Source of the DNA: Tsukamurella sp. 8F
Lineage (GTDB): Bacteria; Actinomycetota; Actinomycetes; Mycobacteriales; Mycobacteriaceae
NCBI RefSeq assembly: GCF_029167375.1
Contig: NZ_JARFTP010000010.1
Coordinates: forward strand, 1-64,000
Length of the DNA: 64,000 bases
Direction: 5' to 3'
Shown: positions 28,193 through 41,908 of the stretch, piece by piece
Layout of the letters: each line of letters opens with the position of its first letter
Numbering within the stretch: position 1 is the first letter of the stretch
Notes under the pieces: model-generated
Database searches by the model: none
What the model was told of the DNA's origin: nothing
The model's input: only the letters and a program-made list of their open reading frames with translations
Position numbers and translations under genes: made by a program

Positions 28193-29242
28193 CTACTCGG
28201 TGGCGAGCAGCCCGAGAATCCGCTCGAGATCATCCGCCGAACCGAACTCGACGACGATCTTGCCTTTGCGGCGGCCCATATTCACCGTGACCCGGGTGTC
28301 GAGCCGATCGGCGAGGCGATCCGCGATGTCCCGGAGTTCCGGCGCCGGCTCCGGGCGCGGCTTGGGCGGAGCCACCGGGGCCGCGGGACCTTCTCGATTG
28401 GCGAGGGTGACCGCCTCCTCGGTCGCCCGCACCGACATACCCTCGGCGATGATGCGCGCTGCGAGCGCCTCCTGCGCATCCACGCCTGCTGTGAGGGCGA
28501 GCAGGGCGCGGGCGTGGCCGGCAGACAGGATCCCCGCTGCGACCCGCCGCTGTACAGCCACGGGCAGCTTCAGGAGGCGGATCGTGTTGGTGACGACGGG
28601 GCGCGACCGTCCGAGCCGGGCGGCCAGCTGGTCGTGCGTCACGCCGAACTCCTCGAGCAGCTGCTGATAGGCGGCCGCCTCCTCGAGCGGGTTCAGCTGC
28701 ACGCGGTGGATGTTCTCCAGGAGCGCGTCCCGCAACATGTCACCGTCCGGGGTCTCGCGCACGATCGCCGGGATGGTCTCCAGGCCCGCGAGTTGACTTG
28801 CTCGCCACCGACGCTCACCCATGACGAGCTGATACCGCACGTCACCGTCGGGCTTGGGCAGACTGCGCACGACGATGGGTTGCATCAGCCCGAACTCGCG
28901 GATCGAATGCACGAGCTCCGCGAGCGCCTCCTCATCGAAGACGGAGCGCGGCTGGTGCGGGTTCGGCTGAATCTGAAGAGGCGGGATCTCGCGGTAGACC
29001 GCACCGATCTCCGTGCCCTCGACCGCGTCGGCCGTCTTGGTCGCCGCCCTCTTCTTGGCCGGCGCCTTCGCCGCCTTGGCCGGGGCGCCCGGGTCCGGTC
29101 GAGTGGGCGCCGGCCCGTCGGCGGGGCGCGCCCCGATGATCACGTCGGCCGCGGCGTTGCCCAGCCGCGGGCCCTCGTCCGGCCCCGTGGGAATGAGAGC
29201 GGCGAGGCCGCGTCCCAAGCCGCCCTTGCGCTGTGTTGCCAT
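28193..29242 (-). CDS. parB: Chromosome partitioning protein ParB
   Basis: CTP-dependent sliding clamp that loads at parS, 349 residues. After a basic linker (residues about 50-85) come the CTP-binding motifs ([16 protein letters not shown], then [19 protein letters not shown]), the helix-turn-helix ([18 protein letters not shown]) and a C-terminal dimerisation domain rich in charged residues ([17 protein letters not shown]). The ATG overlaps the parA stop (TGATG), so both proteins are made from one message. Its binding sites are the nine parS listed here. Confidence 0.97.
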
Positions 29243-30159
29243 CAGTGCGACTCCCGGTGTGCGCCTCGCAGGGCGAGCTCGCGCCCAGCGTCTAGGTAAC
29301 TCATCGCGCCGCGCGAGCCCGGGTCGTAGTCGAGCACCGTCGTGCCGTAACCCGGGGCTTCGGACACCTTGACGCTACGGGGGATCGCGGCCGCCAGCAC
29401 CCGATCACCGAAGTGACCCCGCACCTCGGCCGCCACCTGATCTGCCAGCTTGGTACGCGCGTCGTACATCGTGAGGAGGATCGTGGACACGTGCAACTGC
29501 GGGTTGAGGTGCGACTGCACCAGCTCGATGTTGCGCAGCAACTGGCCCACGCCCTCGAGGGCGTAGTACTCGCACTGGATCGGGATCAGCACCTCGCGCG
29601 CGGCCACAAGCGCATTGACGGTCAGCAGGCCCAGCGATGGCGGGCAGTCGATGAAGACGTAGTCCAACTCGTCCGCCGCGGCGTCGGCGAGGGCGTTCTT
29701 CAAGCGGGTCTCGCGAGCCACCATGCTGACGAGCTCGATCTCGGCACCGGCGAGGTCGATGGTCGCCGGAACACAGAACAGGTTGGGGGAGTGCGGGCTC
29801 TGTGCCATCGCCTCCGACAAGGTGCTGTCGCCCAGAAGGAGCTCGTAGCTCGATGCGACGCCCGAGCGGTGATCGACGCCCAGCGCAGTACTCGCGTTCC
29901 CCTGCGGGTCGAGGTCGATGACCAGGACGCGGAGTCCCTGCAGGGCGAGTGCCGCAGCGAGGTTGACCGCGGTCGTGGTCTTACCGACGCCGCCCTTCTG
30001 GTTGGCGATCGTCAGCACGCGACGTTCGACGGGGCGAGGGAGGGTCCCGGCCGCCCCCGGGGTCAGGACCTGAGCTGCGCGGCTCGCCGCGGCTCCGATT
30101 GGGGTGTCCTCTTCACGCGTTCCACGTGAAACCTGGTAACCGGCGTCGGGATCTGTCAC
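29242..30159 (-). CDS. parA: Chromosome partitioning ATPase ParA
   Basis: Deviant-Walker ATPase of 305 residues that moves ParB-parS complexes. Walker A is KGGVGKTT with Lys60; the second motif is [30 protein letters not shown] is Walker B. The first 47 residues are an extension before the P-loop domain. The GTG at 30159 has GAGGAG 5 bases upstream. Codons 10-14 (V-S-R-G-T) are written by a parS site, which is unusual because it places ParB on its own operon leader. parB follows without a gap. Confidence 0.96.
30119..30132. promoter_or_regulatory. parS: parS site 1, inside parA codons 10-14
   Basis: GTTCCACGTGAAAC, differing from the perfect palindrome by one base. It lies within the coding sequence near the 5' end of parA. 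Confidence 0.9.
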
Positions 30160-30230
30160 GTGCTCTCCTCACTAGACGATTCCATAGTAGTGGTCGGATC
30201 GGCCCCTCACACCAGCGCTCTCGACCCCGA

Positions 30231-30244
30231 GTTCCACGTGAAAC
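30231..30244. promoter_or_regulatory. parS: parS site 2
   Basis: GTTCCACGTGAAAC, 72 bases upstream of the parA start, in the expected parAB promoter region. ParB bound here could repress the operon. Confidence 0.92.
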
Positions 30245-31009
30245 GCGTGCGCCCAGAGAGCTACTCCGCGATCACCGATGCGTGTCGACAAGCGATGGAG
30301 CGTACGAACAGAAGAGCAGCCTGACCCGGCCGACGATGTGTCAGAGTCTACGGTGCTTCGCCGCCGACGGCGCGCGGAGGTCGCTCTCGTGCGCCGACGG
30401 AAGTACGCGCCGCCACGGAGATCGCCGGTCGGCTTCCGGCGTGGACGCATACGGATCCGGAAGGTTGCGCCGACTTGCCCGGCGGGCATCAGCCGGGCGC
30501 TCGCGGGTGACTCCGTGCCGGCGCTGACAACGACGTGAGCGACGAGTCGCTGAGCGGATGCACACGTCGCGACGACGACCCTTCGCGATCGCCGCGGAGG
30601 CGCCCACACCGCCCGGCGGTGGCGAACAGTTCGACACGGTCGATGCTTTCGACGAGGACGCCGTCGGTCGACCGACCCAACCCGACCACGGCAACAGCGA
30701 CGTCGGGCCACGTGTCGCGTGCAGTTCCCCGATCGGACCGTTCGCGCGCACCTACGGGCGGCCGCCCGCAGCGTATTCAGGGCGGCGCGCGCAGCCCCAC
30801 CGCGAGCAGCGCCACGCGATCGGCCGCTGCACCGGGCCCAGCGGCGACGTTCGACGGCGGCCATTCCGCCGCGACAAGAGCAAGCTCCGTTCGCCGACGG
30901 CCAGACCATACGCCAGGCCGCGGGCCCGACCGCTCTCGTCCTACAGCCACTGCCTCTCTCGATCACCGAATAGCACCCGTGTAATTCAATGATCGGTCAC
31001 GTCGCCGCA

Positions 31010-31023
31010 GTTCCACGTGAAAC
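31010..31023. promoter_or_regulatory. parS: parS site 3
   Basis: GTTCCACGTGAAAC, the same single-asymmetry form as sites 1, 2 and 9 and in the same orientation. Confidence 0.92.
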
Positions 31024-31262
31024 TGGTGCCACGCGGCGCATCGGCGATCGAGCTCCGGTCCGGAGGATAGGAAGCAGTGACACGCCCATGGTGCGCGGAG
31101 GGCGCTACGGCGACTCTCGTACGGAGGGGCTCAACAACGCCACCTGGCACAGCTGCGCCAGTCCGCCCAATGCTCTCGACGAGCCGATCCGGCCGCGCAT
31201 CGCCGCGACGGTGCCACTGTTCCAGCGACGGGCCTTCGTGCCGATTCCGGATCCAACCGGTC

Positions 31263-31276
31263 GTTCCACGTGGAAC
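31263..31276. promoter_or_regulatory. parS: parS site 4 (perfect palindrome)
   Basis: GTTCCACGTGGAAC, fully palindromic over 14 bases. First of five perfect sites in the centre of the array. Confidence 0.95.
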
Positions 31277-31668
31277 CTACAAGTGCGCGGAGGCCGCCTC
31301 GCTCGGCATGTGCGAAGTCCACCGACAGGTAGCCGGACTTACCCGGTGCCGCATCACCGTGTCTACGCCGTGAGGGCTTGCGGGCACGCCATACGCCCGA
31401 GCCGGCAGGCCGTCGCGCGGCGTGCTCGGCGAGCGACCGAAAATGCCGACACCGACGCCATTCACGACCAGGCATCTCCGCACACCCGGCCTCGGGCATC
31501 GGCGGCGCTACTTACTTCTTGCTAGCTTGCGTCTGCCGACGCCCCATGCGGCAAGGTGCAGCGCCTCCAACGGTCGCGTCGTCCCGGTCCGCAAGGCATC
31601 GACGACACGCAAATTCGCCGTCCGTCCGACCGCTTCCCCTCGTCCGACAGAAGCCACCTGCCGCGTCC

Positions 31669-31682
31669 GTTCCACGTGGAAC
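31669..31682. promoter_or_regulatory. parS: parS site 5 (perfect palindrome)
   Basis: GTTCCACGTGGAAC, flanked by C on the left and A on the right as in sites 6-8. Confidence 0.95.
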
Positions 31683-32023
31683 AGCGCACGCACTCACAGC
31701 CCACCGTCCGACCGAAGTCCCACACGAGTCCCGCGATTCACTGCCTTCCTATCCCCGCCGGCGCGGTCTACCACCGCACCCCCGGCAGAGCCGCCTACAC
31801 GGACCGGCGGCCGAGCCGCCCGCACGAGTTCGCATCGTTGGGTGGGCGGGCGCGGGGGAGGAGCGCCCCGACTCCAGGCGATATGCACCCGGCCCCGATG
31901 TCGGTACGGGTGCAGTCGACAGCGGAGGAACTAGACCGGTGCTCCGCCGTCCACCGCGGTCGGCCGCTAGGCAACCGGCGATCTGTGGCCGGGTCCATGG
32001 ACACCCGTTGGTGCGGCGGCGTC

Positions 32024-32037
32024 GTTCCACGTGGAAC
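32024..32037. promoter_or_regulatory. parS: parS site 6 (perfect palindrome)
   Basis: GTTCCACGTGGAAC, 355 bases after site 5. Confidence 0.95.
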
Positions 32038-32169
32038 AGCGACGCCCGCCGGCTCGGCTCGCAGCCTCGATCGGACCTCTGCCGACGTCCCTGCGGACAT
32101 CTCGATCTACCTCCCGGCCAAGAGGCCCACATCCTGCACCGGGCGGCCGGTTCGATCACGTCGAGCTCC

Positions 32170-32183
32170 GTTCCACGTGGAAC
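32170..32183. promoter_or_regulatory. parS: parS site 7 (perfect palindrome)
   Basis: GTTCCACGTGGAAC, only 146 bases after site 6, the tightest pair apart from sites 1 and 2. Confidence 0.95.
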
Positions 32184-32476
32184 ATCGCGTGTGCCCATGA
32201 ACCGCATCGAGTCACCTCACCGCGATCGTCTCCGACACCGCTGCACCGCTCGCGCGAGCGGCTACAGGCGTCCGGTCGAATGCGCGGTACCCGCGGCTAC
32301 GCCCGAGTCGCCCGGAGCAACATATCCCGGCCGCCGACCGCACCACAGCCGTCACCGGGGTCTGATCGCGCGCCGCGCGGGCGCGCTCATCGTCGGTTTC
32401 CGAGTGCGGCGAGATGGCGGCGTCCCAACCGGCGCCCATCGTGTCGGCACGATCGGAGGGGAGGGGATTCCCTGCC

Positions 32477-32490
32477 GTTCCACGTGGAAC
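32477..32490. promoter_or_regulatory. parS: parS site 8 (perfect palindrome)
   Basis: GTTCCACGTGGAAC, last of the perfect sites. Confidence 0.95.
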
Positions 32491-32637
32491 ACGGCCACCC
32501 GGCATTTGCGCGGCACGTCCCCACGACGCCGCACCGTCCCGCGCGGCCAGGCGTACCCGCCACCGAGACCACCGCCGCCGCCTGTATGCAGAACATCCAC
32601 GCTGGCGGCCTCAGTCGCCTAGCGCCACGCGGCTGCC

Positions 32638-32651
32638 ACACTACGTGGAAC
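32638..32651. promoter_or_regulatory. Degenerate parS-like half site
   Basis: ACACTACGTGGAAC keeps the right half (ACGTGGAAC) but has four mismatches on the left. It may be a decaying parS or chance. Confidence 0.35.
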
Positions 32652-33395
32652 TCGATACGTGGCAGCGAGGCACGTCCGCTCGGCACACCGTGACGTGGAT
32701 CAGCGCGGTCGCAACGGCACACCTGGCATCGCGCACCCGCCAGAGACACCCGGGTTCACGGTGGAAGTCGGTGGGCATTCCGACGACGCAAGCCCACGTT
32801 GGCTCAACACCCGCGAGCCGACCAGAGACACGGAGCCTGGGCGGACGAACGTGTCGAACTCCCTCACGAGCCCGCCGCGTGTCGGCGACCAACAGCCTGC
32901 CCGCCCGGACTGCGACCCGAGATCCTCGCGCAACCGATGCTGCCTTATCGAACGCGACCGTCGACCGACCGACTCCGCCCGGACAAAAGCGAGGAGCATC
33001 GCCGTGCGACAACTGACGCCTATAGGCGAGGACCCTTGAGGATCACGCCGCTCCGATGACCCGGCGCAACCCTTCTCCGATCCGCATTCGAGTGTCGCGC
33101 CGTGCAGACTCTCGAGCCAGCGGTTGCTGGTGAGGCGATAGCGCCGGCCGACGGCACCGTTGATATCTTCCCAGCCACCTTAGAAATGGGACGTTCGTAC
33201 AGTAATAGTCAGGTTGCAAGGCCTTCGGCACGGCCTGCCGATCCCCTCTTGTCACGTGACGAAAACGACCGCGGGTGATCGGTCCAGGAAAAGACGTGTC
33301 CGATATACACCTATTCGGCCCTGTGCCGACCCGCACACCACCATCCGCGGCTCGCGGCGAACCGACGCGATGTCAAGGCCGATCGGCCTATCGCG

Positions 33396-34172
33396 TCAGC
33401 GCCGGTGGCCGCCACCACGCGGGCCGCCACCACGCCGGCCGCCGCTACGTGAGGTGCGCGTCGACTGACCCGAGCGCGCGACGCCGCCCGGCTTCACGGC
33501 GCCGCCGGTGCGGAAAGCGCGTACGACCGTGGTCGGCGGGTCGACCACGCCGGCACCACACTGCACGACCTCCGGATCCCGAAGCCCAGAGCGTGCGAGC
33601 AGCGGACCGTGCTCCTCGATCTCTTCGAACGCCTTCGAGCCTTTGATGGCGAGTAGCCGCCCCCCTTCGCGGAGCAGGGGAGCGGACCACGGAGCAAGCT
33701 TCGGAAACCCGGACACCGCTCGGGATGTCACGGCGTCGACCCCGGCCAACTCACGGATGATCGCCTTCTCTTCCGCGCGCCCTCGCACCACGCGGACATT
33801 CGGCAGCCGAGTATCGCAGAACTCTTCCAGGAACTGGACCCGTCGCTGCAGCGGTTCGACGAGCACCACCTCGACGCCGGGGCGCGCCATCGCCACCGGG
33901 ATGCCGGGAAGACCCGCGCCGCTGCCGATATCGACGAGCCGCTCACCGTCGTCGAGCAGTTCGCCCAGCGTTGCACAGTTGAGGATGTGACGCTCCCACA
34001 ATCGCGGTACCTCACGCGGACCGAGAAGGCCGCGCACCACACCGTCAGTCGCGAGAGCCTCGCAATACTCGACGGCAACGGGAAGCAGGTCGCCGAAGAC
34101 CTGGGCGGCGACGTCGGGCACCGACGGCAGCTCGGCGGACGCGTCGCCGGGCCGATCGCGATCCTGTTCCAC
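33396..34172 (-). CDS. rsmG: 16S rRNA (guanine-N7) methyltransferase RsmG
   Basis: Methylates a guanine of 16S rRNA in the 530 loop region; loss gives low-level streptomycin resistance in other bacteria. 258 residues. The SAM site is VDIGSGAGLPGIPVAMA, preceded by LWERHILNCA. The C-terminus ends in an RG-rich tail (RSGGRRGGGPRGGGHRR) absent from M. tuberculosis GidB as I recall it. The GTG at 34172 is chosen because GGAGG lies 6 bases upstream. That start codon and the spacer form parS site 9. An ATG at 34250 would extend the protein through a terminator-like hairpin and is less likely. Confidence 0.9.
   Translation of the reverse strand: MEQDRDRPGDASAELPSVPDVAAQVFGDLLPVAVEYCEALATDGVVRGLLGPREVPRLWERHILNCATLGELLDDGERLVDIGSGAGLPGIPVAMARPGVEVVLVEPLQRRVQFLEEFCDTRLPNVRVVRGRAEEKAIIRELAGVDAVTSRAVSGFPKLAPWSAPLLREGGRLLAIKGSKAFEEIEEHGPLLARSGLRDPEVVQCGAGVVDPPTTVVRAFRTGGAVKPGGVARSGQSTRTSRSGGRRGGGPRGGGHRR
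33407..33435. repeat. Tandem 14-base repeat encoding the RsmG RG tail
   Basis: GGCCGCCACCACGC occurs at 33407-33420 and 33422-33435, a 15-base period. On the minus strand it encodes the Gly/Arg-rich end of RsmG. Confidence 0.7.
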
Positions 34173-34179
34173 GTGAAAC
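34166..34179. promoter_or_regulatory. parS: parS site 9, overlapping the rsmG start codon
   Basis: GTTCCACGTGAAAC. Read on the minus strand it supplies the spacer and GTG start of rsmG directly after GGAGG. ParB bound here should affect rsmG expression. Confidence 0.9.
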
Positions 34180-34218: not shown

Positions 34219-34251
34219 GATGGGCCCCGGGCTTCGTGCCCGAGACCCATC
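34219..34251 (-). terminator. Stem-loop terminator after jag
   Basis: GATGGG/CCCATC and CGGGC/GCCCG arms close on a TTCG-containing loop. It lies between the jag stop (34295) and the rsmG start, ending the rpmH-rnpA-yidD-yidC-jag message. A short T-run follows on the minus strand. Confidence 0.6.
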
Positions 34252-37649: not shown

Positions 37650-37771
37650 CAGTGCTGTCCGCAGGTGGGTAGGGGTTGCCCACGACGGTGTATTTGACGG
37701 TTGACGAGCAGGTCGGAGGCCGGACGGGGTGGAAACCGCCCGGTTCGGCGTGGCCGACGAAGGACGGATCG

Positions 37772-39445
37772 ATGACAGTGGACCCCCTCGCCGACATCTG
37801 GGCGGCGGTCGTCGATGAACTCTGCACCACCGGGGCCGACAGCGATCGGCAGCTGACGATGCAGCAGAAGGCCTGGCTGCGTCTCGTGCAACCGCTCACC
37901 CTGACCGAGGGTTTCGTGTTGGTCGCCGTTCCGTCGAAGATGATGAAGGACGCGATCGAGCGCAATCTGCGCGAGCCCCTCATCGCGGCCCTGTCCACGC
38001 GGCTCGGCCAGCCGATAGAGCTGGGCGTCAAGATCGCGCGGGACGCCACCCCGCCGACGGACGGGCAGGTACCCACGGCCGAACCCGCAATCACGTTGCC
38101 GCAGACCCCCGATACCGCCACGCGCGCCGACGGGGCGTCCGCCCCGAGGCCCGACGGGACAGGGGAGGCAGCGAGCTCGGCACCGTCGTTCGTGGAACTC
38201 GCGGCGGCCGCGAGCAGCGATCCGGCGGGCGCCGGACTGCACGATCCGGCACCGTCCACGACGGACCTGCCCGTCGTAGGCGGGACCGCCTCGACGAGCC
38301 ACTGGGACGGCAGCGTGCCGGCGAGCCCCCCGATGGCGACGCGGAATCACACCGTCCCCGCGGTCACCCCGGTCACGGCGTCGGGCCGGCATACGGGACC
38401 GTCCGAGCCGGTGCACGGCTCGAGTCTCAACGAGAAGTACACGTTCGACACCTTCGTCATCGGCGCATCCAACAGGTTCGCCCACGCCGCCGCTTTCGCG
38501 GTGGCCGAGGCACCCGCTCGCGCCTACAACCCCCTGTTCATCTGGGGTGAGTCGGGCCTCGGCAAGACGCACCTGCTGCACGCCGCCGGCCACTACGCGC
38601 GCCGACTGTTCCCTGGTATGCGCGTGAAGTACGTGTCCACGGAGGAGTTCACGAACGACTTCATCAACTCGCTCAAGGACGATCGCCAGGTCCAGTTCAA
38701 GCAGCGCTATCGCGACGTGGACGTGCTGCTGGTCGACGACATCCAGTTCCTGGAGGGCAAGCTCGGCATCCAGGAGGAGTTCTTCCACACCTTCAACACA
38801 CTGCACAACGCGAACAAGCAGATCGTGGTCTCGTCGGACCGGCCCCCCAAGCAGCTCGCCACTCTCGAGGACAGGCTCCGTACGCGATTCGAGTGGGGCC
38901 TGATCACGGATGTGCAACCGCCCGAGCTGGAGATCCGCATGGCGATCCTGCTCAAGAAGGCCCAGATGGAGCGCATCGACGTCCCGAACGACGTGCTCGA
39001 GCTGATCGCCACGCGTATCGAGCGCAACATCCGCGAGCTCGAGGGCGCGTTGATCCGCGTGACCGCATTCGCATCTCTGACGGGCTCGCCCGTGACCTAC
39101 GACCTCGCCGAGATGGTGCTACGAGACCTCGTGCCCGACGCGTCCACCATCGAGATCAGCTCGACGACGATCCTCGCCGTAGTAGCCGAGTACTTCGAGA
39201 CGACCGTCGCGGAGCTGCGCGGCACAGGCAAGACCCGCGCGGTCACCAACGCACGACAGATCGCCATGTACCTCTGCCGTGAGTTGACGGATCTGTCACT
39301 GCCGAAGATCGGCCAGATATTCGATCGCGACCACACCACCGTCATGTATGCGGAGCGCAAGATCCGCAAGGAGATGCCGGAACGTCGCCGCGTGTACGAC
39401 CAGGTTCAGGAGCTGACGACGCGGATCAAACGCCGCAGCCAATAG
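37772..39445 (+). CDS. dnaA: Chromosomal replication initiator DnaA
   Basis: Opens oriC and loads the helicase. 557 residues: N-terminal domain I (about 1-85), a long Pro/Thr-rich linker (domain II, about 90-215), the AAA+ domain with Walker [14 protein letters not shown] and Walker [13 protein letters not shown], and the C-terminal DNA-binding domain with the signature [17 protein letters not shown] at 37772 is chosen because AAGGA lies about 8 bases upstream and it matches the usual N-terminus. An earlier in-frame start at 37676 would add 32 residues of no homology. Confidence 0.97.
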
Positions 39446-40344: not shown

Positions 40345-40744
40345 GGTGTTCTCCCCACTCGCGAACGACACGCGGTTTCGACGCCGAATCTACCCGCGCA
40401 AGGCCTGTGGACGGAGAGCACTCGACCAGTGCAGAACCTGTGGAGGACTCGAGGACCGGCCCTCACAATCGGAGCCGGTCAACAATGACATCCATGTGGT
40501 TCCACAATCCGCTCTCGAGAACTACACAACCGGACACGCCTGCTGCCCTGCGGCTACCCGCTCCATCCACAGGACTCACAGGCGTTACTACTACATCTTT
40601 TTCTTCTCTAGAACTCTCTTCTGAAAAGAGCAGATGTGTAGTTCGGTCGCTTGTGCGTCGAGCCGACCACGTAGCCTGTATCCCACGACAACCGTGCTCC
40701 GCATGGTCGACCTGTGCTGTCTCCAACCGAAAGGCGTCGCCGGC
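40345..40744. other. oriC: Putative origin of replication (oriC)
   Basis: 400 bases without a gene between the MmpS-like gene and dnaN. DnaA-box-like elements are GTCCACAGG (complement of 40404-40412), CTCCACAGG (complement of 40438-40446), GTTCCACAA (40499-40507) and ATCCACAGG (40565-40573). Immediately downstream comes a DnaA-trio-like series and an A/T-rich stretch to about 40630, the most A/T-rich sequence nearby. The position next to dnaN agrees with mycobacterial oriC. Confidence 0.8.
40585..40608 (+). promoter_or_regulatory. DnaA-trio-like unwinding element
   Basis: The triplets TTA-CTA-CTA-CAT-CTT-TTT-CTT-CTC follow the DnaA box at 40565 after a short G/C-containing gap. The complementary strand reads as 3'-AAT-GAT-GAT type trios, the pattern DnaA uses to melt DNA in Bacillus. 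Confidence 0.55.
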
Positions 40745-41908
40745 ATGAAGTTTCGCGTCCCGCACGAGGAGTTTGCGGATTCGGTCGCGTGGGTGGCCCG
40801 CAGCCTGCCGTCGCGCCCTCCCGTCCCCGTCCTCGGCGGCGTGCTGCTGACCGCGGACGACGCGGGCCTCACCGTCTCGGGTTTCGACTACGAGGTGTCC
40901 GCGCAGGTGCGCGTAGGCGCGGAGGTCGCCGACGAGGGCCAGGTCCTCGTGTCGGGCCGCCTGCTAGCCGACATCACCAAGTCGCTGCCGAACAAGCCCG
41001 TCGACGTCGAGCTCGACACGACGCGTGTCGCGATCACATGCGGTAGCGCGCGGTTCTCCCTTCCGACCATGCCGGTCGAGGACTACCCGCAGTTGCCCGA
41101 CCTGCCTACGCAGACCGGCACGATCGAGCGCACGTTGTTCGCCGAGGCCATCACGCAGGTCGCCGTTGCAGCGGGGCGCGACGACACGCTGCCGATGCTG
41201 ACGGGTATCCGTGTCGAGATCGAGGGCGAGAAGGTCGTTCTCGCGGCGACCGACCGGTTCCGGCTCGCGGTGCGTGAGTTCAGCTGGACGCCCGCGAGCC
41301 CCGACACCAGCGCCGCGGTCCTGGTTCCGGCGAAGACGCTGTCGGATGCGGCGAAGACGTTCGCCGTCGACGCAGAGGTGGGCATAGCGCTGGGCGCGGG
41401 CTCCGCGATCGGCGCCGACGGCCTGCTGGGTGTCTCGGGAGCCGACCGCCGGACGACCACCCGCCTGCTCGACGCCGACTTCCCCAAGTTCCGCCAGTTG
41501 CTGCCCGCCTCGCACACGGCGATCGCGACCATGGAGATCGCGCCGCTGCTCGAAGCCATCAAGCGCGTCGCGTTGGTCGCGGATCGCGGTGCCCAGGTGC
41601 GGATGGAGTTCAGCGAGGGCTCGCTGCGGCTGTCGGCAGGCGGCGACGACGCGGGCAAGGCCGAGGAGGAGCTCGAAGCCGAGTTCCGCGGTGAGCCGCT
41701 GACCATTGCGTTCAATCCCGGATACCTGCAGGACGGCCTGGCGGCCATCCACGCGGACTCGGTGATGTTCGGTTTCACGACGCCCAGTCGGCCAGCGGTT
41801 CTGCGCCCGGCGATGGACAATGGCATCGAGCCGGACGACTCGGGGGCATTCCCTGCGCCACAGAGCGCCTACACCTACCTGCTGATGCCCGTGCGCCTGC
41901 CCGGCTGA
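40745..41908 (+). CDS. dnaN: DNA polymerase III beta sliding clamp
   Basis: Ring-shaped processivity clamp, 387 residues, three similar domains. Recognisable parts are the start [40 protein letters not shown] in domain I, and the C-terminal [12 protein letters not shown] that forms the partner-binding pocket edge. ATG at 40745 matches the family start. The longer frame upstream runs into oriC and is rejected. Confidence 0.97.

Follow-up and report, generated by a model that had tools for sequence, protein, structure and literature searches.

A compact array of nine parS sites beside parAB

Nine parS sites lie within 4.06 kb of a 64,000-nucleotide stretch of the Tsukamurella sp. 8F genome (here, the window), beside parA and parB and near the origin of replication. 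From their sequence context, this compact, genus-wide set of sites is most likely the centromere at which ParB loads in an otherwise ordinary ParABS system close to the origin. In such systems, ParB nucleates at parS, spreads along the DNA, and links to ParA and SMC. The best explanation overall, which we hold with considerable confidence, is a compact chromosome centromere on which ParB would form one merged domain, with an expanded spacer that would act as a loading and sliding track. An earlier note on this DNA had proposed a centromere-like ParB-loading array beside parAB; that proposal is well supported at the sequence level by the sites, their exclusivity, the Pfam assignments of ParA and ParB, and conservation across the genus. 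The sites are canonical parS and origin proximal, as is characteristic of a chromosomal ParABS centromere.

The nine copies listed in the earlier note are borne out by a search of the window allowing up to two mismatches, which returned only these nine places (18 strand matches), whereas 100 shuffles gave 0.83 matches on average. Four are plus-strand copies of GTTCCACGTGAAAC: parS 1 (30119 to 30132, within parA codons 10 to 14), parS 2 (30231 to 30244, 72 bp upstream of the parA start), parS 3 (31010 to 31023), and parS 9 (34166 to 34179, over the rsmG start codon). The other five are perfect palindromes: parS 4 (31263 to 31276; GTTCCACGTGGAAC), parS 5 (31669 to 31682), parS 6 (32024 to 32037), parS 7 (32170 to 32183), and parS 8 (32477 to 32490). 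All nine had been described as lying in one orientation, which is true of the four asymmetric sites but has no meaning for the palindromes. Spacing between neighbors is irregular, at 112 to 1,689 bp. Likewise, the description of the sites as surrounding gene-free DNA holds for the seven inside the spacer between parA and rsmG (30160 to 33395; 3,236 bp without recognizable genes) but not for the two end sites at 30119 and 34166, which are inside parA and rsmG.

A motif search of the whole genome (4,680,862 bp in 70 contigs), proposed earlier as a check, leaves the array standing alone: no further exact canonical parS was found in these 4.68 Mb outside the nine sites. The pattern GTTCCACGTGRAAC is restricted to the 4.06-kb array, and exact GTTTCACGTGAAAC has no copy in the genome. 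Allowing one mismatch to GTTTCACGTGAAAC adds one place, the variant GTTTCCCGTGAAAC on the same contig, 92.6 kb off (C2:126743), and a second variant place, GTTTCCCGTGGAAC, lies at C24:13758. Within the spacer, positions 32638 to 32651 read ACACTACGTGGAAC, which has four mismatches to the palindrome with the right half intact and is possibly a decayed site or half-site.

The nine sites have the 14-mer in common, and the likeness of their flanks is only short and loose. Two tandem repeats were detected between 30000 and 34500, and neither contains parS. Growth of the array by duplication of a larger unit was rejected, the common sequence being the 14-mer plus this short flanking similarity.

Flanking genes and the origin of replication

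The gene order on the minus strand is yidC, jag/khpB, rsmG, spacer, parA, and parB. Beside the sites, parA (29242 to 30159, minus strand, 305 amino acids) encodes a Walker-type ParA ATPase (AAA_31, 1e-60) whose identity within the genus is 85 to 91%. The adjacent parB (28193 to 29242, minus strand, 349 amino acids; PF02195, PF17762, PF23552, and TIGR00180) encodes an N-terminal domain, a helix-turn-helix (HTH), and a C-terminal dimerization domain. The GERRWRA motif of ParB, which we take to have a role in binding cytidine triphosphate (CTP), is kept in the genus alignment. Both proteins are intact. The genome also encodes SMC (a 1,214-amino-acid frame) and ScpB.

On the other side of the array, dnaA (37676 to 39445, plus strand; TIGR00362, 9e-148) starts 3.5 kb past the last parS and dnaN (40634 to 41908, plus strand; TIGR00663, 2e-100) starts 6.5 kb past it. 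In this bacterial order oriC adjoins dnaA, and the positions of the two genes therefore place the array a few kilobases from the origin region. Rfam at gathering thresholds gave two transfer RNAs as the only matches in the window.

The rsmG gene (gidB; 33396 to 34172, minus strand, 258 amino acids; TIGR00138 above cut-off) has a GTG start inside parS 9. This site overlaps the end of the Shine-Dalgarno GGAGG and the start codon (GGAG-GTTTCACGTGGAAC, in which the internal GTG is the start), and both the Shine-Dalgarno sequence and the GTG are conserved. Because the same parS-embedded arrangement is kept in a Tomitella locus (L036) as well as in each of the 15 measured loci of the genus, the start of rsmG is probably the GTG at 34172 rather than the ATG at 34250 of the open reading frame (ORF) list.

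Given the position of the end sites, over the rsmG start and the 5' codons of parA, ParB bound at the sites might mainly repress rsmG and parAB, a form of autoregulation. An operator role has been proposed for Mycobacterium bovis BCG, in which a putative parS is reported to overlap a gidB promoter (PMC2346475). We judge this account of the array improbable: six of the seven spacer sites are at least 0.85 kb from the parA start, the positions of inner sites vary between species, and seven extra sites are seemingly unneeded for such regulation.

Under the preferred centromere reading, ParB dimers would load at the nine parS, close as CTP-bound clamps, and slide onto the adjoining DNA, and their spreading zones would merge into a single dense domain of ParB, a few kilobases away from dnaA. 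One merged domain is expected because the spacings between sites fall below the published spreading distances. In Caulobacter, the spreading of ParB from single sites is described as reaching no more than 2 kb (PMC5815017), and in Corynebacterium glutamicum the maximum of the chromatin immunoprecipitation signal is reported within 2 kb of a site (PMC7083940). ParA would then move the merged domain, and SMC-ScpAB could load there.

Conservation of the array across the genus

All 16 genomes of the genus sample matched the pattern; one (G011) was left out because its locus is split over two contigs, which leaves 15 including this one. In all 15, both gene-embedded end sites occupy the same place, parS 1 being at the same offset of -40 from the parA start. 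Many members also carry a site 107 to 163 bp upstream of parA, comparable to parS 2 here. The spacer is expanded in every one of these genomes, ranging from 1,027 to 4,116 bp (the G008 spacer includes 646 N, and the G010 gap is uncertain at 2,577 or 2,401 bp, its rsmG end looking broken), and holds 1 to 7 exact sites. What distinguishes the end sites from the inner ones, which move, is their coding location and fixed place within the genus. They probably represent an old pair, to which the seven inner sites would have been added as the rsmG-parA spacer grew.

Across the 36,437 bp of spacer in the 15 genomes there are 52 exact parS, together with nine near matches at one mismatch and two at two mismatches. 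The corresponding expectations from simulated DNA are 0, 0.03, and 0.2, which excludes a chance origin of the spacer sites. Eight of the nine one-mismatch sites are of an A-to-C type (six GTTTCCCGTGAAAC, one GTTTCACGGGAAAC, and one GTTCCCCGTGAAAC). That sites are mostly either exact or absent fits selection keeping the inner sites sharp.

The earlier note had divided the array into two site classes, inner palindromes and outer asymmetric sites. This split is not conserved. The 52 exact sites comprise 32 copies of GTTCCACGTGAAAC, 5 of its reverse, 9 of GTTTCACGTGAAAC, and 6 perfect GG palindromes; five of these six are in this genome and one is in G003. Because the other 14 spacers together hold a single palindrome, the block of palindromes is particular to this genome. 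A change in ParB recognition behind the block was considered and rejected: the HTH region hardly varies among the 15 genus members, with one R-to-K change in this genome, and no matching specificity change is therefore evident.

Within the same set, asymmetric spacer sites favor one orientation by 32 to 5 (naive binomial P of 7e-6, uncorrected for shared ancestry), and the fifth of the spacer that adjoins rsmG holds none of the 52 exact sites. A site-free zone beside rsmG does not hold as a general rule in other genera. The variant GTTTCCCGTGAAAC recurs in the genus gaps L116, L117, L120, L121, L123, L128, and L131, and in g1 (16 genomes) 8 of 14 matches of GTTYCCCGTGRAAC fall in the spacer.

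Absence of recognizable genes from the spacer

A Pfam search of three ORFs in the spacer gave no match. The three top-scoring spacer ORFs of at least 80 amino acids have codon log-odds scores of -0.05, -0.06, and -0.10 per codon, whereas the 33 training genes average 0.40 and go as low as -0.15. The 15 genus spacers yielded 296 ORFs of at least 60 amino acids, of which two, taken as queries, had a blastp partner in another genome (E values of 1e-4 over 33 amino acids and 3e-8 over 52 amino acids at 54% identity), neither of them in this genome. Genes in the spacer were rejected on these three lines of evidence. The simple gene caller left other stretches of similar length uncalled too, so the spacer need not be the longest stretch free of genes.

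The length of the spacer, its lack of recognizable genes, and its lack of conservation would also fit decaying DNA, either a decayed gene or a mobile-element insertion with which parS arrived by chance or as part of a former centromere, and some genera (g10) carry tandem rsmG copies at the locus. We consider such an origin very unlikely. The chance version is already refuted by the exclusion of chance sites, the three ORFs lack Pfam matches, the 296 ORFs yield just the two cross-genome links, and none of the 15 measured genus loci has lost the spacer. The spacer most likely serves as a loading and sliding track for ParB on which little transcription would take place.

Rapid turnover of the spacer, and a conserved element in it

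In blastn comparisons of eight chosen genus pairs, 98.3 to 100% of the locus outside the gap aligns, compared with 4.6 to 20.6% inside it, a contrast between the spacer and flanking DNA that is mostly coding. G003 and G009, the closest of the 14 genomes compared, are 80% identical at fourfold-degenerate sites, which are under composition bias in a GC-rich genome. Just 14% of their spacer aligns (with 150 bp trimmed per end), whereas substitutions alone at 80% would align almost fully in a simulation run without insertions or deletions. Shared site positions differ between the two closest pairs by parA DNA: G006 and G012 have none in common in the alignment, and G003 and G009 share all four sites of the shorter gap, although the sites themselves help to anchor gap alignments of this kind.

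Within the gap, many members can still be aligned over a stretch of at least about 60 bp ahead of parA, in the surroundings of some parS, and over 30 to 150 bp after rsmG. The spacer of this genome has a single blastn link, of 27 bp within the element after rsmG, and the short stretch upstream of parA that is conserved in most members is not recognizable in it. The genus spacer thus appears to keep its ParB boxes, the element after rsmG, and mostly the stretch upstream of parA, while the remainder would be replaced fast. It is conceivable, though we think it rather doubtful, that this centromere evolves somewhat like eukaryotic ones, with the DNA between boxes replaced faster than the surroundings, the boxes kept sharp, and the spacer keeping the ParB domain free of transcription.

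The conserved element downstream of rsmG spans 33172 to 33318 (core 33250 to 33276) and consists of a GGTACG..CGTACC-like palindrome followed at a near-fixed distance by TGTCACGTGWCGAAA...CCGYGGGT. An nhmmer profile whose training set included 14 of the 15 genus loci finds the element in every one of the 15, and the core pattern has one match in each of 9 of 16 genus genomes, invariably at the rsmG-parA locus. A conserved RNA structure was rejected, RNAalifold giving about -2.0 and -3.6 kcal/mol. The profile also has weak matches elsewhere, the best at an E value of 3.5e-5 in G104, and one at the same place after rsmG in G030 of genus g16 (E value of 0.02).

Expanded spacers in the wider family

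The array had also been called unusual for actinobacteria, which holds in part. Among 401 sampled family genomes this one ranks first, with nine GTTCCACGTGRAAC places, and a genus member is next with eight, a census in which genera using GTTTCACGTGAAAC are undercounted because the GTTCCACGTGRAAC pattern omits that form. The layout, on the other hand, is genus-wide, and five other genera have expanded spacers.

The family comparison used 100 loci out of 131 genomes, chosen to cover all 30 other genera; two g2 loci were dropped for want of a parA match, leaving 113 genomes measured, including the 15 of this genus. The parA starts in other genera were extrapolated from the alignment, and gap lengths are good to some tens of bases. 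Gaps of more than 600 bp occur in 15 of 15 genomes of this genus, 3 of 4 in g16, 5 of 7 in g23, 7 of 7 in g28, 1 of 2 in g18, and 1 of 2 in g5, so that some or all members of six genera have expanded gaps of 0.65 to 4.8 kb. In the remaining 76 genomes, from 24 genera, no gap exceeds 252 bp. A quick ParA-ParB-RsmG tree of the 113 genomes (LG+G4, with no root inferred and g23 straddling the 600-bp threshold) requires at least seven changes for the expanded state.

Most of the family has sites at or near the two end places. Of the 113 genomes, 104 carry an exact site within the rsmG frame, 101 carry one at most 150 bp from the estimated parA start, and 94 have both. Exact sites in the expanded gaps number 3 to 6 in g16, 3 to 5 in g28, 2 in g18, and 1 in g5; none occur in the five expanded gaps of g23, which instead carry two to five copies each of GTTTCCCGTGAAAC. 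That variant is present in all 13 g23 genomes searched (for example, L155 and L176 to L180). In six expanded or near-expanded g23 gaps it lies 35 to 38 bp from the estimated parA start, and four repeat it at 454 to 461. The same sequence is listed as a chromosomal parS probe of Thermus thermophilus (PMC4409726; table of PMC7022226). The longest ORFs in the expanded gaps of other genera reach 469 amino acids in G094, and third-position GC is raised in G078 and G057.

Several other loci have layouts of their own. In g10 (L143, L169, and L197 to L201), seven of eight genomes have two rsmG matches 1.4 to 3.5 kb apart, the eighth having one match at a contig end; L143 and L169 have exact sites at the first rsmG start, in between, and at about the expected start of the second copy. 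The two g2 loci (L135 and L164) have no parA match in 10 kb, with the parB match starting about 100 bp beyond that of rsmG. Four copies of GTTTCACGGGAAAC spaced 33 to 36 bp apart surround the estimated rsmG start in L173 (g9, G070), and in L150 (g18, G032) an array lies across parA, on the side of parB, with five GTTTCACGTGAAAC sites 2.6 to 5.3 kb from the parA start.

Comparison with known centromeres

A similar layout is known from mycobacteria. For M. bovis BCG and M. smegmatis, a putative parS is reported in the 5' region of gidB (rsmG), and M. bovis BCG has a second one inside parA; gidB and parA overlap in M. bovis BCG, and jag, gidB, parA, and parB lie together (PMC2346475). The end pair here corresponds to the two putative parS of M. 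bovis BCG; the difference is the 3.2-kb spacer with seven further sites.

In Myxococcus xanthus, 22 parS are reported within a 3-kb cluster that lies about 4 kb upstream of parA and has the consensus TGTTCCACGTGGAACG (PMC3899335). Both systems have a dense cluster near parAB and oriC, and TGTTCCACGTGGAACG includes the same palindrome; M. xanthus belongs to another phylum, and a gene-embedded end pair is not among the features described in the sections of that study that we draw on (PMC3899335). With 9 sites in 4.06 kb, this array falls short of the roughly 20 or more in 3 kb of an M. xanthus-like cluster, and the M. xanthus case means that its density is not of a new kind.

The F plasmid centromere sopC has many binding sites in a short noncoding stretch of regular tandem repeats. 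By description, this array resembles a sopC-type centromere in packing many sites into short noncoding DNA, but its irregular spacings and lack of a long common repeat unit set it apart. C. glutamicum belongs to the same bacterial order as this genome. Its ten parS are reported over 35 kb, 73 kb from oriC, nine of them intergenic and one in trpCF (PMC7083940), and it resembles the present case in having about ten sites, one cluster near the origin, and ParAB acting with condensin. The combination of an end pair within genes, an expanded spacer, sharp boxes, and fast turnover was not found among the titles and abstract openings listed by searches of open-licence literature.

Loading platform or redundant sites

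Several observations weigh against the best explanation given at the outset. A C. glutamicum strain with one parS is reported to grow and divide like the wild type, so that most sites are perhaps redundant for growth, although the origin-region contact pattern of that strain is described as not fully that of the wild type (PMC7083940). Site number follows gap length loosely (Spearman coefficient of 0.54, P of 0.038, n of 15, over a fourfold range of length), G006 and G012 have one exact spacer site each, and one of the four g16 genomes has a gap of 130 bp. A promoter and terminator scan of the spacer came out at chance level, with no support either way for a transcription-poor track. The best spacer ORFs of other genus members reach +0.02 per codon, and the codon score alone is not decisive because the lowest training gene stands at -0.15 and rsmG itself scores low in the sliding profile.

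The first of these points also favors a reading in which a near-neutral spacer grew near the origin and extra parS, harmful elsewhere, were tolerated there with little benefit beyond the end pair. In Caulobacter, extra parS clusters are reported to be tolerated best near the native one (PMC5815017), and the 76 genomes of 24 genera with short gaps have no expanded spacer. We regard such redundant accumulation as possible but less likely than not. It predicts that decayed relics should be common, whereas the matches in the genus spacers, counting those off by one or two bases, are 52 exact sites, 8 A-to-C variants, and 3 others, and the expanded gap with its exact sites is kept in all 15 genus members.

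If spacers have indeed expanded repeatedly within one family, they would form a natural series from two-site to nine-site centromeres, with short gaps and few sites in most sampled genera versus expanded gaps in six. The Caulobacter parS study names the expansion of a bacterial centromere region, and its driving force, as an open question of interest (PMC5815017). Comparing or swapping natural variants of this kind would make the roles of site number, spacing, and a transcription-poor track in chromosome segregation testable.

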